DNA of 27,901 nucleotides from a virus, in the IMG/VR virus record IMGVR_UViG_3300032288_002065, positions 1 to 27,901 of that record. One strand, given 5' to 3'. The notes under the pieces were generated by a model. The model was given only the letters and a program-made list of their open reading frames with translations. It ran no database searches and was not told where the DNA came from. Made by a program: the position numbers and the translations under genes. This document shows, one piece after another, positions 3,760-27,900 of the stretch (positions within the stretch are counted from its first letter, which is position 1; each line of letters starts with the position of its first letter).

Positions 3760-4976
3760 AACGCTTTCTCCTCCGGAGTCAAAAACTTCCACTCTTCAGG
3801 GTCCACCTTAGAAGGCGCATCCCACGATCCCGACGCGCCCGCGCCGCGTGCTGCGGGTTTTGTTTCGCCGGCAAGATTTTTTAGCCGATTTTTCGCTACG
3901 TTCCAAGCCGCTAAACGCTCCGACCGCGTTTTACGGGGGTTTGCTACGTCGCCCAACGTCCCTTTCAAGAAGTCGCGGTCTTCGTTGGAGAAACCTGCGC
4001 CTAGTTTTCCTCCCGCGAGATCTAGCGCCATTTGATTTGCTATGGCTGCGAGGGACTCAATGTTTTGCGCGCCCGCAGTCCCCATGCCCACGCTTCGCGC
4101 CAACGAATCAACCCAAGTTCCCGCCAGAGACCCCGTGGAGTTTTTGATAAGGTCTGTAACCGTATCGGACGCAGTATTCGGGTCATACCCGATTTGCGTG
4201 AGCGCTTTGCGGGCAGAAGCGGCCTCTTTAGTCTCCTGCACTTGACGCAACGGCGTAAATTTGTTGGTTGTAGAAGAAATAAACCCGCCCGCATCGGCGT
4301 TGTACGTGCCCAAATCTTCCGCTGCGACTCTGCGCTGAAATTCTTGTTCCGTCCTGCGTTCTTGTCTTTTCGCTCGCTCTTCGGCGGAGTCCGCCCGTCT
4401 TTCTTGCTGCTGCCTAATCCCAAGGTCAATTAGCTTGTCTAAGCCTAAATCCGATTGCACAAGAAAAGACTGCCACGAATCCGGCGTTTTTGCTGCCTCA
4501 AGAATTTGTGCCCGACCCCTATCAGCAGTTGCACCCATGCTTTCCAAATAAGGCCCAAGCACGGCGTCGGCATGAACTGCATCGTGAAATGCAAGCCTAT
4601 CTTCTGGTGTAAGGGCGCTTTTTTGGATCTCTTTGAACGACTTAAGTCTGTCTGTAATCAACTGTTGTTGCGCCGAAGCCGTTTGAAGAGAAGCAGCCTC
4701 GGCCTGCTGAAGCGCCCGCTGCGCTTCAAGCCCCGGCGTGCCATACCGAACCAGTCCTTTCCGCGCTTCCGACGTGCTTAGGTCAGCGCCTCTAAGGTAC
4801 TCGCGCAACGCGTTTTCTTGCTCAATGCCCTGTTTAAGCTGCCCCATCTGAAGATCGCGCAGCGCGTTTTCTTGCTGCGCGTTCCGCATCGCCATAAGCT
4901 GACCCACCTGGGCCATCGCATTGACGGGCTGAATCTGCGGGGGTTGAATCTGCGTAGCAAAAGGTTGGATAGGCAT
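3747..4976 (-). CDS. Ejection/internal virion protein (P22 gp20 position)
   Basis: This 409-residue protein has a Gln/Pro-rich N-terminus (TQIQPPQIQP), then long Gln/Glu/Arg-rich helical segments (about residues 20-120 and 185-215). The C-terminal part ends with a conserved-looking tail, DPEEWKFLTPEEKALWQK. It lies between a gp7-like protein and the large ejection protein, 3 nt after the former and overlapping the latter by 13 nt. P22 ejection proteins are poorly conserved, so the assignment is based on order (gp7, gp20, gp16), helical composition and lack of other domains. An alternative is a generic internal head protein. Confidence 0.6.
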   Translation of the reverse strand: MPIQPFATQIQPPQIQPVNAMAQVGQLMAMRNAQQENALRDLQMGQLKQGIEQENALREYLRGADLSTSEARKGLVRYGTPGLEAQRALQQAEAASLQTASAQQQLITDRLKSFKEIQKSALTPEDRLAFHDAVHADAVLGPYLESMGATADRGRAQILEAAKTPDSWQSFLVQSDLGLDKLIDLGIRQQQERRADSAEERAKRQERRTEQEFQRRVAAEDLGTYNADAGGFISSTTNKFTPLRQVQETKEAASARKALTQIGYDPNTASDTVTDLIKNSTGSLAGTWVDSLARSVGMGTAGAQNIESLAAIANQMALDLAGGKLGAGFSNEDRDFLKGTLGDVANPRKTRSERLAAWNVAKNRLKNLAGETKPAARGAGASGSWDAPSKVDPEEWKFLTPEEKALWQK

Positions 4977-20813: not shown

Positions 20814-21077
20814 TCAGTTGCACTTCCACCGCCGCAGCGACGCCTTAGCGCGTTCCGCCGGGCCTTTTGCCTTTGCCACCACCCCGGACATGCGAGCACA
20901 AAAAGAGGCTTTACGCCCCTTATCGGCCTTGGTCTTTGGGCTTGGCGCGGGAGCCTTGAGATTTGACCCAGTTTCCCGGTTGTATTTTGCGCGGCCTTTG
21001 GCGGTAAGTCCAGCCCCGCGGGAAACTGGCTGTTTTTCGCCCCGTCCGACCGACAACGAAACACTTTTACGTGTCAT
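20814..21077 (-). CDS. 87-residue basic protein (DUF6321-like)
   Basis: ATG 21077 shares one base with the large-terminase stop (TAATG). A GTG at 21092 is in frame but less likely, since relatives begin MxRKxVSLS. The protein is basic and contains RGEKQPVSRGAGLTAKGRAKYN and SFCARMSGVVAKAKG, phrases I associate with DUF6321, a phage family of unknown role. The K/R-rich C-terminus ends RRWKCN. Position between terminase and portal suggests a packaging or capsid-interior role. This is inference. Confidence 0.7.
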   Translation of the reverse strand: MTRKSVSLSVGRGEKQPVSRGAGLTAKGRAKYNRETGSNLKAPAPSPKTKADKGRKASFCARMSGVVAKAKGPAERAKASLRRWKCN

Positions 21078-22603
21078 TATGATGCCATCCACGATCCGGT
21101 TGTTTGCCCCTGCTGCGAGTACCGTCGCAGCGCCTTCTCTCGCGCCTCCCGGTGGGCAACCGGGTACGCGAACGTCACCGCCAACGCGTCAGCGGCGTCC
21201 GGAGACGCCAGCCCGCGGGCCTTCATTTCCTTCTTGCCCTCCAAGAAGATCGTTCCCGCCGAGTTGGGCTTGGTTTTTGGCCCCGTAAAGTCGGCTTTTA
21301 GCTGCCGATCCTTCGGGATCGCCGCCGTTCGCAACCAATCGCGCATTGCACCCCACATTTCGGCGCGTTTGTTGCCCCACATGACCGGATTCTTGGCCTT
21401 CCAGCCAAAATTGACGCCCCGGACCTTGTACCGCTGCTCGTTTAGCCGGTCCAAGATGCCATATCCTAGCCCGCCTTCGTCAATGACGGTCAGCGCCGGC
21501 CGGTACTCCTCAATGGCGTCGATGATGTGCCCTACGGTGGTCATCGTGTCGTCGCCCTGGTAGCGTTTCAACGCGATCAGGTCGCGCCCTTGCCGCACTG
21601 CAATAACCGTCGAGTCCATGCCGCCTCGCGCCGGGTCGATCCCGATGACAATCGGCGCCGTTTCGTCCTTGTACTTGGCCCGCGCCGCCGCCTCGTCCAC
21701 CATCCGCGGGGAGATGAACTGATCGTCGCCCGAGGACGGGAACTCGCCGTACACCTCTACCCGCGCCTGGATAGAGTCCTCGCCGTATTCGGCAATGATC
21801 TGCTCATAGACGGCCTTGTCGGTGTCCTCGACCGTCCGGGCGTCGATCTTTTCGCTGCTCCAGAAGTCCCGTTTGGACCCCTCGACCGCCTCGAAAAAGT
21901 ACCCTTGATTGCGCCGAGGGTTGCTGAACGCGAACCAGTACCGGTCCAGAATGTTCTCGGTAAAGAAGCCCGCGCCGACCGCCCAGATGGGGTCCGGTAT
22001 ACCGCTGGCCTCGTCAAAAATGAGCATCATGCCGTCGTGGTTGTGGACGCCCGCGTAACTGTCGGGGTTTTCTTCCGACCACAGTTTGCCCTCCGCCGCC
22101 CAGTAGCGCGTGCCTTTCTTCAGGTCGCGCTCGACCAACTCTGTAAGCCACTGCGCCGGGGTGATCTTGGTTGCGCTGATCTCCCACCAGTGCGAGTTGA
22201 TGAGCATGGCGCACCACTTGGACAGCTCGCCCCAGGTCACTGACCGTAGCTGCGCTTCGGAGTTGGCGCTGACGATGACCGACGCCCCGATGCGCGTCGT
22301 CATCATCCAGAGGATGAGCCAGCTCACCAGCGCCGATTTGCCGATACCGCGCCCGGACGACACCGCCAGCCGCAGCGTGTCCATCGTGACCTGACCGCGG
22401 TTTTCGGCCAAGTGCTGCTTGATCTGCCTAAGAACCGTCCGTTGCCACTTGCGCGGCCCCTTGAACTTGGCAAGCGGCGTATTGGCCTGCCCCCACGGGA
22501 AGGCAAACAGCACGAACGCTTCCGGGTCGTCTGCGATGTTCGGCTGCCACAGCCGGGTCATCAGCAGCATCTCCTCGTCGGCGCTATAGATCGGTTTCTG
22601 CAT
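21077..22603 (-). CDS. Terminase large subunit (ATPase-nuclease)
   Basis: This 508-residue protein has both terminase domains. The ATPase has Walker A GRGIGKS (residues 84-90) and Walker B MMLIFDEAS (about 192-200, with D197 and E198). The RNase H-like nuclease has GIDPARGG (D323), VIDEGGLG (D375) and a late acidic motif SPDAADALAV. It cuts concatemeric DNA and drives it through the portal. The gene overlaps the small-subunit gene by 20 nt and is followed by three basic proteins, then the portal. Length and motifs are complete, with no missing catalytic residue seen. Confidence 0.93.
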   Translation of the reverse strand: MQKPIYSADEEMLLMTRLWQPNIADDPEAFVLFAFPWGQANTPLAKFKGPRKWQRTVLRQIKQHLAENRGQVTMDTLRLAVSSGRGIGKSALVSWLILWMMTTRIGASVIVSANSEAQLRSVTWGELSKWCAMLINSHWWEISATKITPAQWLTELVERDLKKGTRYWAAEGKLWSEENPDSYAGVHNHDGMMLIFDEASGIPDPIWAVGAGFFTENILDRYWFAFSNPRRNQGYFFEAVEGSKRDFWSSEKIDARTVEDTDKAVYEQIIAEYGEDSIQARVEVYGEFPSSGDDQFISPRMVDEAAARAKYKDETAPIVIGIDPARGGMDSTVIAVRQGRDLIALKRYQGDDTMTTVGHIIDAIEEYRPALTVIDEGGLGYGILDRLNEQRYKVRGVNFGWKAKNPVMWGNKRAEMWGAMRDWLRTAAIPKDRQLKADFTGPKTKPNSAGTIFLEGKKEMKARGLASPDAADALAVTFAYPVAHREAREKALRRYSQQGQTTGSWMAS

Positions 22604-23242: not shown

Positions 23243-23287
23243 GCATGTGGCAGTGCGGCATGTGGCAGTGCGGCATGTGGCAGCGCG
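23243..23287. repeat. Three tandem 15 bp repeats (GCATGTGGCAGTGCG)
   Basis: Three head-to-tail copies start at 23243, 23258 and 23273. The first two are identical and the third has one change (GCG for TGCG). Each carries the core GGCAG, which recurs at 23297, 23386 and 23395 outside the array. Fifteen-base spacing does not match whole helical turns exactly. It may be protein-binding iterons or a small slippage array. Confidence 0.85.
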
Positions 23288-23293
23288 GCATTC

Positions 23294-24318: not shown

Positions 24319-24344
24319 TCCACTACACGAAAGGAAACCCGACA

Positions 24345-24980
24345 ATGACGACTCTGACACTTCACATTCCTCATGCCACCATCAAAGCCGCGCTGATCGT
24401 CGCGCCTAAAATGGACGTGCGCAATTACTTGAACGGCGCCGCGCTGGACCTGACGGATGGCACCAAGCCGCGGCTTGTCGTCACCGACGGCCACAGAATG
24501 CTTGTCATTAACGCGGAACCCTTCATCCGCGACGATGACGGCAATTATCCCGGCCTGCCGCCGGAAATGATCGGGCAAACCTACATTCTCCCGCGCGACC
24601 TGCTCGCCGCCGTCAAACCGGCCAAAGTCGGCAAGGTTGAATTGCCGCTTGCCGTGACGATTCACCACGCGGACGGCAAACCGGCCGGGTTGACGGTCCA
24701 AGGCGCGACGACCGCGCAAGGTAGCTGCATCGATGGCAAGTACCCCGAATGGCGCCGAGTATGGCCGCAGTCCCTATCCGGCGAGGCGATGCAATATAAC
24801 CCGGACTATCTGGCCGACTTTAAGGCGATCGCCGCGCTATTGATAGACAAGAAAGGCGCGCAAATAGTCGTCGGGTATAACGGCCACGGCCCGGCCCTTA
24901 TCGACTTTGGCCTTGATACCGCTGCGGGAGTTGTCATGCCGCAACGGCTGGACCCGCCCACCCTGCCGACTTGGATCTAG
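24345..24980 (+). CDS. Two-domain DnaN-like sliding clamp protein
   Basis: From ATG 24345 (AAGGA upstream) the protein is 211 residues. It aligns with the second and third domains of the bacterial beta clamp. DVRNYLNG (24-31) matches DVRYYLNG, VVTDGHR (45-51) matches VATDGHR, GKYPEWRRV (131-139) matches GRFPDYRRV, and VVMPQRL (196-202) matches VVMPMRL at the DnaN C-terminus. These include the peptide-binding pocket residues. Domain I is absent. DnaN is normally about 366 residues and dimeric; a two-domain form could be a trimer like T4 gp45 or act on the host clamp system. An extra 9 residues follow the RL. The upstream in-frame ATG at 24258 lacks support. Confidence 0.8.
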   Translation: MTTLTLHIPHATIKAALIVAPKMDVRNYLNGAALDLTDGTKPRLVVTDGHRMLVINAEPFIRDDDGNYPGLPPEMIGQTYILPRDLLAAVKPAKVGKVELPLAVTIHHADGKPAGLTVQGATTAQGSCIDGKYPEWRRVWPQSLSGEAMQYNPDYLADFKAIAALLIDKKGAQIVVGYNGHGPALIDFGLDTAAGVVMPQRLDPPTLPTWI

Positions 24981-25038: not shown

Positions 25039-25070
25039 TTATTACCCTTTAGCACATGAGGACCGAGACA

Positions 25071-25505
25071 ATGGACAAGCAGCTATTGATTGATGCGCTC
25101 GACGTTTTCATCCGCCAGCGGCCCGGATTCGATCCGGCCAATTACACACCGGCCAGCTATCGCGCCGACTCGCGCATGGTGGCGCGGCAATTGCGGGAGG
25201 CGCTGCAACTACTGCGCGCGGTGGAGCTTCGTTGGAGCATAACCGTCGAGGACATCCTGCGCGAAGCGCAAGGCGGACGGCTCGACATTACCGACACGCC
25301 GGAAGGTGTGCGAATGAGCTACACGGCGGGGCAATACTACTGCACCGAATATCGTGCCGCGGTGGCGCGGCTGCTGGCCGGCGTGCTATGGGATCACGCA
25401 CGCGAAGCCATGATCGCCGCGGACGGGCGCGCGGACGGCGACGCGCTGCGCGCACGGTTCCGGCGGGAGTTCGGGCGCGGGCTGGCGTCGCGTTACTTCA
25501 ACTAA
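25071..25505 (+). CDS. 144-residue early protein, unknown function
   Basis: ATG 25071 is preceded by GAGGA and chosen over ATG 25056, which places the ribosome site inside the gene. The product begins MDKQLLIDALDVFIRQRPGFDP and contains YRADSRMVARQLREA (about residues 30-44), an acidic/Arg-rich middle, TAGQYYCTEYRAAVARLL, and a helical C-terminus. A similar architecture is common in phage early regions without a known function. It is soluble, with no cofactor or nuclease motif visible. Confidence 0.65.
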   Translation: MDKQLLIDALDVFIRQRPGFDPANYTPASYRADSRMVARQLREALQLLRAVELRWSITVEDILREAQGGRLDITDTPEGVRMSYTAGQYYCTEYRAAVARLLAGVLWDHAREAMIAADGRADGDALRARFRREFGRGLASRYFN

Positions 25506-27114: not shown

Positions 27115-27176
27115 TTGCCCTCCTCGCCATCCTGCTTACGCTGTTTTTGGCTTGGGCGCTGGACTTGGATTCTTGA
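27111..27176 (+). CDS. 21-residue hydrophobic peptide, last overlap of the chain
   Basis: ATG 27111 overlaps the previous stop (ATGA). The frame reads MIALLAILLTLFLAWALDLDS and stops at 27176, so it is a single hydrophobic helix. It lies over the 3' end of the convergent helicase gene (stop at 27136), so much of its sequence is constrained by that gene. It may be a real membrane peptide or a coincidence. Confidence 0.35.
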   Translation: MIALLAILLTLFLAWALDLDS

Positions 27177-27900
27177 CAATATGGAGTTGCGGCGCGGTGG
27201 GAGTCTCGACCATCCGCCGCAGTTCCGACTTTGACACTCGCGCCATGTCGGGCGCGGAGAAAATGCGCTTGCGGGAGTTCAACTCCGCCGAGGCGCATAA
27301 TCCCCGATCTTCCCAGCCGGCCTCCTCCAGCGCGTGCAGGAGCGCCGCAGGGACGATCTTGACGCCGGACGGTGCCCGAGCCTGTAGCTGATCGCAAAGC
27401 CGGAAGAAGGGCGCACCGACGGCCCCGGCGGCGAACTCATTGCGCCGCGCGCGGATCTCGTCCAGGACGAAAGCCTCAGCCGCGCTCATGCCAACCTCAA
27501 TCAGGCCGAGCTTGAAGTCCGTCATCATTGGCGTGGCCATCGGGTTGAAGGCGGACACGTCGCGGACGTTGAGGAAGGCGCCGACGCGAGCCATACCGCC
27601 GGCCTTGTACCATCGCCAAATGGCGTCCGTTTCTTCTTGGGTGAGGCGCGGCGCGTCCGACTGAAGGCAGAACCAGCGCCGGTCCTGCGATTCGAGCGTA
27701 ATCGGCATCCGGTCGTTGCTGAAGGCCAGCACCAAGAGCCGGTTGATGGCCTCGTAGGGGTGCAAATTCTTACGGTTGACGGTAAGCGTATCGGGCGGCG
27801 CGGCGATGACCGGCTTCAGACGATTCGCCAACTCGCGGCGCGATTGGCCGTCCGTCTCTTTCAGTTCGTTCAGGATCAGGATTTCCGACTGGTAAGCGTA
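27136..27900 (-). CDS. Primase-helicase C-terminal part (NrS-1/D5-like; 5' end beyond the window)
   Basis: The minus-strand frame is open to the right edge, giving 254 visible residues of a longer protein. A TTG at 27831 is not a true start because the frame continues (AYQSEILILNEL). LLVLAFSNDRMPITLESQDRRWFCLQSD matches the SF3/D5-type helicase stretch in which the DRRWF region follows the ATPase core. The rest is helical (TDFKLGLIEVGMSAAEAFVLDEIRARR). NrS-1 polymerase-type proteins fuse primase and helicase. Walker motifs and the primase domain lie outside, so the polymerase/primase part is assumed. It converges on the early cassette. Confidence 0.75.
   Translation of the reverse strand, partial: YAYQSEILILNELKETDGQSRRELANRLKPVIAAPPDTLTVNRKNLHPYEAINRLLVLAFSNDRMPITLESQDRRWFCLQSDAPRLTQEETDAIWRWYKAGGMARVGAFLNVRDVSAFNPMATPMMTDFKLGLIEVGMSAAEAFVLDEIRARRNEFAAGAVGAPFFRLCDQLQARAPSGVKIVPAALLHALEEAGWEDRGLCASAELNSRKRIFSAPDMARVSKSELRRMVETPTAPQLHIVKNPSPAPKPKTA

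Follow-up and report, generated by a model that had tools for sequence, protein, structure and literature searches.

A phage-borne DnaN relative, predicted to comprise one and a half clamp domains, keeps the peptide-binding pocket and lacks the ring-interface regions

In the bacterial DnaN dimer, as described in the sections of PMC11139829 drawn on here, I78 and F106 contact I272 and L273, and K74, R96 and R103 are ion-paired to E298 and E300; E304 is a conserved charged residue at the same interface. The engineered monomeric beta I272A/L273A, covered in those sections, is a pocket-bearing protomer without a ring. It bound the clamp loader subunit delta at ~7.5 nM, compared with ~460 nM for dimeric beta in that study (7-160 nM in others), and processive synthesis with it is impossible. 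Other members of the clamp superfamily have fewer than three domains per chain. T4 gp45 and PCNA, according to the cited part of PMC9690074, consist of two complete domains and form trimeric rings. The host clamp system can also be a target. The Gp168 protein of phage Twort binds the DNA channel of the host clamp (PMC11139829, same sections), the SocB toxin binds the clamp pocket, and suppressors of SocB and RipA map to this pocket (PMC12795458 and PMC9690074, in the excerpts used here).

The phage protein described here, which we call a short clamp, resembles each of these systems in part. With bacterial DnaN it shares domain II, the second half of domain III, the pocket geometry and most pocket residues, but DnaN also has a domain I, a first half of domain III and a ring interface that the short clamp lacks. 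The engineered monomer keeps all three domains and carries two point changes, whereas in the short clamp the interface regions themselves are missing. Unlike gp45 and PCNA, the short clamp is predicted to have 1.5 domains of the DnaN type. Gp168 is likewise a phage protein, but the short clamp resembles the clamp itself rather than something that binds within it.

The gene lies on the plus strand at positions 24345-24980 of the window, by which we mean the whole 27,901-base stretch of DNA analysed, identical to its source record, a virus contig. It encodes 211 amino acids plus a stop in a frame without internal stops, its relatives use the same start, and direct reading of the sequence finds a Shine-Dalgarno-like AAGGAAA at 24331-24337 (plus strand), ~7 nt 5' of the ATG. 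The surroundings are those of a P22-like podovirus, with portal, coat and terminase genes on the minus strand. The short clamp sits in a plus-strand cluster flanked by the terminase genes and by a minus-strand gene for a VapE/D5-like primase-helicase. The C-terminal part of the latter occupies 27136-27900 (PF19263, E 4.6e-6), where it is cut by the end of the record, and its product shares 54.7% identity with the VapE of MW202483. The large terminase subunit (21077-22603, minus strand) served as the lineage marker for presence/absence comparisons. The next gene 3' of the clamp (25056-25505, plus strand) encodes a 149-aa protein of no known family, with a homologue at 12 of 80 relative loci. 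A PADLOC search of the clamp and five neighbours gave zero matches. Judged by its structural genes, the phage is closest among annotated relatives to Phage DSL-LC05 and MW202483 (portal ~70% identity), and a search with the family profile found a short clamp in neither. As a separate observation, a 15-bp unit is repeated 3.3 times (97% match) at 23243-23291, at the 5' end of the open reading frame for the small terminase subunit, whose true start is probably further inside the frame than called.

Relationship to DnaN was established by several profile comparisons. The protein matches the NCBIfam dnaN model TIGR00663 at E 1.8e-8 and 33.7 bits, a score that, in contrast to bacterial DnaN, does not reach the cut-off of 137.65. 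Its match to the central-domain family PF02767 (E 7.6e-4) is also under the cut-off, and this family matches all 48 members of a set made up of the window protein and 47 relatives at E values up to 1. Against DnaN chains in the PDB, the best E value was 1.9e-6 for the window sequence alone and 1.2e-29 for the 48-member family profile. These matches, the intact frame and the lack of a domain I match described below bear out the earlier note, which had reported a 211-residue DnaN relative without domain I at this position.

That note had also aligned the protein to DnaN domains II and III, and this holds in full for domain II but for domain III extends to the second half alone. Residues 1-143 (24345-24773, plus strand) correspond to a complete domain II, aligned by hhalign to E. 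coli beta 126-252 at a probability of 99.6. At an approximate junction (24774-24779, plus strand), placed by half-domain profiles and structural alignment, the counterpart of E. coli ~254-311, the first half of domain III, is absent. Residues 145-202 (24777-24950, plus strand) correspond in the column table to the second half of domain III, a beta-alpha-beta-beta-beta unit matched by the C-terminal ~57 aa of the protein. Residues 203-211 (24951-24977, plus strand) form a tail past the DnaN end that is modelled at a block pLDDT of about 89. In this tail 56 of 79 relatives carry a P-x-[W/F/Y] motif that is as yet unexplained.

The assignment of the C-terminal part comes from six half-domain profiles, built on E. 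coli beta together with 76 bacterial DnaNs; 80 short clamps were compared with them through their C-terminal segments. All 80 segments match the profile for the second half of domain III, 45 of them above 5 bits (hhalign 94.0%, E 1.3e-7). The other five profiles gave at most 0.35% with hhalign, and one row reached 6.3 bits to domain IIb. Against the domain III second-half profile, eight of 13 members from cultured phages exceeded 5 bits, with a maximum of 32.8 bits in ZK22. Eleven of the same 13 also exceeded 5 bits to the domain IIb profile because the queried segment contains the end of domain II. The first-half profile of domain III also gave 6.4 bits with the ZK22 member, whose PF02768 alignment is confined to positions 68-121 of 121. 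A global MAFFT alignment had placed the helix at residues 153-167 on the first half of domain III, with gaps at N320 and Y323. This placement was dropped after the half-domain test, and the pocket counts below use the global MAFFT alignment for domain II and a separately re-aligned C-terminal segment for the second half of domain III.

Predicted structures agree with this division. An AlphaFold model of the window protein (pLDDT 93.5, pTM 0.88) shows domain II plus an alpha-beta-beta-beta unit, and its residues 1-202 superpose on E. coli beta 123-366 over 173-175 residues at 2.3-2.5 Å with Z scores of 13.5-16.1. A divergent member near the clamp of Acinetobacter phage 4316 (locus L088) was modelled at pLDDT 87.0 and pTM 0.86, with Z scores up to 16.2, and both models fit DnaN domains II-III at 2.2-3.4 Å across 169-183 residues. 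In structure searches with both, the 50 matches listed were all bacterial DnaNs, with neither PCNA nor gp45 among them. The prospect, raised in the earlier note, that a structure might reveal no clamp fold is thus excluded at the level of the models. Profiles and models together identify the protein as a 1.5-domain clamp relative composed of domain II and half of domain III.

The possibility that domain I is encoded elsewhere was also addressed. The domain I family PF00712 has no match in the window protein, in any of 26 clamp-bearing records or in any of another eight records from cultured phages that encode short clamps; the record of the window itself is a 27.9-kb fragment. Two PF00712 hits in the corresponding ten-record set are full-length DnaNs. 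Weak PF00712 matches in five of the 48 members (best E 0.0016) probably represent cross-matching among repeated clamp domains.

The databases name short clamps in conflicting ways, among them "DNA polymerase III beta subunit" and, for Bcep781 gp15, "DNA Pol III b subunit fragment". A third label, "RusA-like Holliday junction resolvase", is attached to PHROG 3007 and 12598, for example for NC_005887 gp31, NC_004333 gp15 and NC_006953 ORF2. Residues 5-204 of the window protein match positions 2-188 of the 190 in the PHROG 3007 profile at E 8.1e-26, and all 48 members match it. Taken at face value, this would make the protein a resolvase. PHROG 3007, however, is the short-clamp family itself, with members from Bcep781, BcepC6B, EP23 and Salmonella and Vibrio phages. 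The RusA family PF05866 matches none of the 48 members, whereas the true Rus of Bcep781, gp22, matches it at E 1.1e-16 as a positive control. With the model adopting a DnaN fold, a resolvase function is exceedingly improbable, and on this profile and model evidence we conclude that the label is wrong for short clamps. Many phage genes misnamed as Holliday junction resolvases can have their label corrected.

Short clamps are numerous. Among IMG/VR records, at least 329 relatives were confirmed and the best 80 of these were kept, so the sample is tilted to close relatives. One locus (L078), a 380-aa open frame when read from its first start, was excluded from the counts; PF00712 matches nothing in its record (G014). 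The remaining 79 loci all have intact frames of 190-228 aa, and alignments described as having 80 rows contain these 79 plus the window protein. Matches were also found in 153 phage records, some of which encode full-length DnaNs. Of 80 bacterial genome loci kept, 76 have a full-length DnaN, one (L092) has a 216-aa short form, and two (L094 and L130) are broken or partial; at the last (L129) no DnaN was found. A tree of 83 domain II rows, based on few columns and with an unsettled bootstrap, separates (99/95) 61 short clamps from two full-length phage DnaNs and 20 bacterial ones, which comprise E. coli beta and 19 loci. The median dN/dS was 0.10 over 76 pairs that are not independent of one another. 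These comparisons identify the short clamps as a widespread lineage of phage genes whose sequences bear the mark of purifying selection. That the gene is a host dnaN that was captured and is now decaying, as the GenBank "fragment" note on Bcep781 gp15 might imply, is highly improbable given the separate lineage, the signature of selection and the intact frames at 79 loci.

What the lineage preserves best is the pocket. In the cited sections of PMC11139829 the pocket is listed as 18 residues, and 15 of these are the same in the window protein as in E. coli beta, the exceptions being L177 (M), V344 (H) and M364 (Q). The first pocket wall, in domain II, comprises R26, L29, T47, G49, H50, R51, P134, R138 and V139, and the second wall, in the second half of domain III, comprises N152, Y155, V196, M198, P199 and R201. 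The ten pocket positions singled out in the earlier note are all present (L29, T47, G49, H50, R51, P134, V139, V196, M198 and R201). Across 80 rows, the bacterial residue is retained at a median of 93% at pocket positions versus 11% at other aligned positions (p 3e-8). Even when the comparison is confined to positions that are at least 90% conserved in 76 bacterial DnaNs, retention in short clamps is 63%, versus 93% for the pocket (p 0.0014).

Not every pocket position follows this pattern. Retention over the 80 rows is 32% for R176, 46% for M364 and 6% for V344, although V is not the majority residue in the V344 column of bacterial DnaNs either. Due to this weak retention, the ligand preference of short clamps may not equal that of beta. 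In the BcepC6B clamp the pocket M-P is missing. A further feature is an [HQ]NG turn by pocket subsite II (E. coli V344-S346), represented in the window by the codons for Y178-N179-G180 (24876-24884, plus strand). In the columns of the 80-row alignment the N is conserved in 76 rows and the G in 79, and [HQ]NG occurs in 65 of 79 relatives. The turn is family-specific and so far unexplained. Three loop residues, D150, Y153 and Y154, are likewise retained in short clamps, and D150 belongs to a loop that contacts DNA (PMC4045847, in the part cited).

The ring interface shows the opposite pattern. All listed dimer-interface residues, including E301, E303 and R105, which we take to be additional members and added to the list, map to the absent domain I or to the absent first half of domain III. 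Within the retained half, eight positions (a count that depends on the alignment) carry a hydrophobic residue in over 80% of DnaNs and in less than 40% of short clamps, where polar or small residues take their place. This change fits the face that would be newly exposed by loss of the other half.

These observations bear on two ways in which the protein might still take part in a ring. One is a new ring, a D2 tetramer around DNA with 12 half-domains in which two second halves of domain III pair as a composite domain and two domain II edges pair as well. Clamp domains have pseudo-twofold symmetry, four chains of 1.5 domains give the required number by arithmetic, and the three retained half-domains are presumably contiguous in the DnaN ring, so the idea is reasonable on geometric grounds. 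We regard it as unlikely, however, because hydrophobic positions of the retained half become polar and the monomer alone is modelled at high confidence. In the second, the short clamp would cap an opened host beta ring, its domain II edge, freed by the loss of domain I, taking the place of domain I and blocking closure or loading. A loading block by a phage protein has a precedent in Gp168 (PMC11139829, same sections), yet a cap would leave the conservation of the pocket without explanation, and we consider this quite unlikely.

Comparison of closely related phages indicates how far the gene is tied to its surroundings. Our comparison set consists of 80 loci whose terminase is 78-84% identical to that of the window, 26 of which contain both terminase and VapE. 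The short clamp is present in seven of these 26 close relatives and absent from 19. A whole-record profile search found the clamp elsewhere in none of 22 clamp-less records (the 19 plus three more), several of which are fragments, and the same profile matched all 14 control records known to carry a short clamp. The interval is of similar length with or without the gene. The short clamp gene is an optional passenger that is tied to no single type of phage polymerase.

The settings in which it travels are correspondingly diverse. In Bcep781 and PSDA-2 the gene stands alone, reversed, amid head genes, and in EP23 it is reversed with one neighbour. ZK22 has a reversed cassette of clamp, anti-restriction gene and ParB-like gene, and AB4P2 has one of clamp, ParB-like gene and HNH gene. 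In Acinetobacter phage 4316, BcepC6B and loci L068, L084, L085 and L088, the clamp lies within a cluster for a family A polymerase, a VRR-NUC nuclease and a helicase. On gene calling, the frame of BcepC6B gp31 (NC_005887.1, 28670-29185) extends upstream to a GTG that adds an N-terminal helix and DIRYYLNG, and the protein is probably annotated too short.

Plasmids form a further setting. On pBB2 of Cupriavidus necator (NC_015724.1, 322848-323579; locus L265, 6968-7699), PRTRC plasmid genes have as their neighbour a short clamp that bears the HNG turn. Matches occur in 253 plasmid records, and three were examined, yielding two Cupriavidus short forms and one full-length Pseudomonas protein. In the record of a Cupriavidus KK10 plasmid, the putative short form lies where no genes are listed. 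More generally, DnaN relatives are encoded on many Pseudomonas and enterobacterial plasmids, and the full-length Pseudomonas protein just mentioned is the 368-aa relative at 378452-379558 of NZ_CP124659.1. The matches in Microcystis phage Mae-JY28 and at locus L001 are also full-length.

If the short clamp served a phage polymerase, the two might be expected together. A family A polymerase is indeed encoded in 16 of 26 clamp-bearing records (13 above the cut-off), but in just one of eight further cultured-phage records, for a total of 17 of 34. The full annotations of phiHSIC and ZK22 name no DNA polymerase. From position 4092 on, the annotation of phage D14E names none save in the clamp's own label, and a Replication P family gene is present. 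PF07733 (Pol III alpha) matched none of ten records, whereas its positive control matched; PF03175 also matched none of the ten, and its control likewise gave no match. Clamp phages without an annotated polymerase therefore probably rely on host Pol III and beta, and for them a strong general decoy would be harmful.

This distribution argues against a trimeric processivity clamp, the first function proposed in the earlier note. Two-domain clamps do form trimers (PMC9690074, in the part cited), but the short clamp is predicted to have 1.5 domains, with the halves that carry the interface residues absent, and its gene is missing from most near relatives that keep their replication genes. Because the gene is optional and also occurs in phages without an annotated polymerase, both a trimer like gp45 or PCNA and, more broadly, a clamp dedicated to a phage polymerase are disfavoured, and we judge the trimer very unlikely.

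A role beside a phage enzyme need not involve a ring. The pocket could grip a phage polymerase, nuclease or helicase while the inner helices hold DNA, so that the protein acts as a tether or scaffold and raises processivity without encircling its template. The frequency of family A polymerases among the 26 clamp-bearing records speaks for this, as do the position of the gene beside polymerase, VRR-NUC and helicase genes in 4316, BcepC6B and their relatives and the retention of D150, Y153 and Y154. The cultured-phage records speak against it, with their single polymerase in eight, and among the 19 near relatives that have VapE and no short clamp, eight nevertheless have a polymerase on the locus. 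Nor was a conserved clamp-binding motif found in 16 polymerases of clamp-bearing phages, 30 VapE proteins or 13 neighbour proteins. KLDLF or KLELF, seen in six of the 16 polymerases from clamp-bearing phages and in none of three from clamp-less phages, was considered as such a motif and rejected, as it maps to a conserved polymerase region, which we take to be polymerase motif A. A tether of this kind is possible, and we would not call it probable.

The reading we prefer, and to which we would give about an even chance, is that the short clamp is a non-ring mimic of the sliding clamp that binds the clamp-binding motifs of host replication and repair proteins, as a competitor or a recruiter. 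A decoy for host clamp-interacting proteins had been the alternative offered in the earlier note, and it gives the best fit to a protein whose pocket is its best-conserved part and whose ring-forming parts are gone, although its action on host proteins is our inference. Sequence and model together show a pocket module that lacks the interface of the DnaN ring and keeps the two pieces, domain II and half of domain III, that form the groove for QLxLF-type motifs. Such a protein would be expected to remain monomeric, or at least to close no DnaN-type ring, and so would leave DNA unencircled; engineered monomeric beta offers the closest precedent. It might then take up one or more host partners, for example clamp loader delta, Pol III alpha, repair factors or clamp-targeting toxins. 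As a result, these partners might be withheld from host beta or brought to phage DNA in early infection.

How forcefully a mimic could act is limited by where the gene is found. Some of its carriers apparently need host Pol III, so this polymerase is unlikely to be blocked completely in every case, and a selective target or a low dose would be more fitting. Titration of a toxin that acts at the clamp pocket is one possibility; proteins such as SocB and RipA target this pocket and could in principle be absorbed by a clamp mimic. The replication-cluster setting in 4316, BcepC6B, L068, L084, L085 and L088 suggests a replication role there, and counts against the mimic. A literature search limited to PMC-licensed text found no paper dedicated to short clamps and no earlier statement of their exact architecture, selective conservation or passenger behaviour; we claim no priority.

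In its broadest form, which we put forward tentatively, the proposal is that viruses possess a lineage of clamp mimics that never encircle DNA, whose free pocket absorbs or redirects motif-bearing proteins such as delta or host toxins, and through which phages and some plasmids control the clamp network of their hosts. Known sliding clamps are rings, and a ring-less family maintained by selection, if real, would show that the pocket alone can serve a virus. Short clamps would then reveal which host proteins are worth controlling, and they would provide a natural scaffold for studies of clamp-targeting inhibitors.
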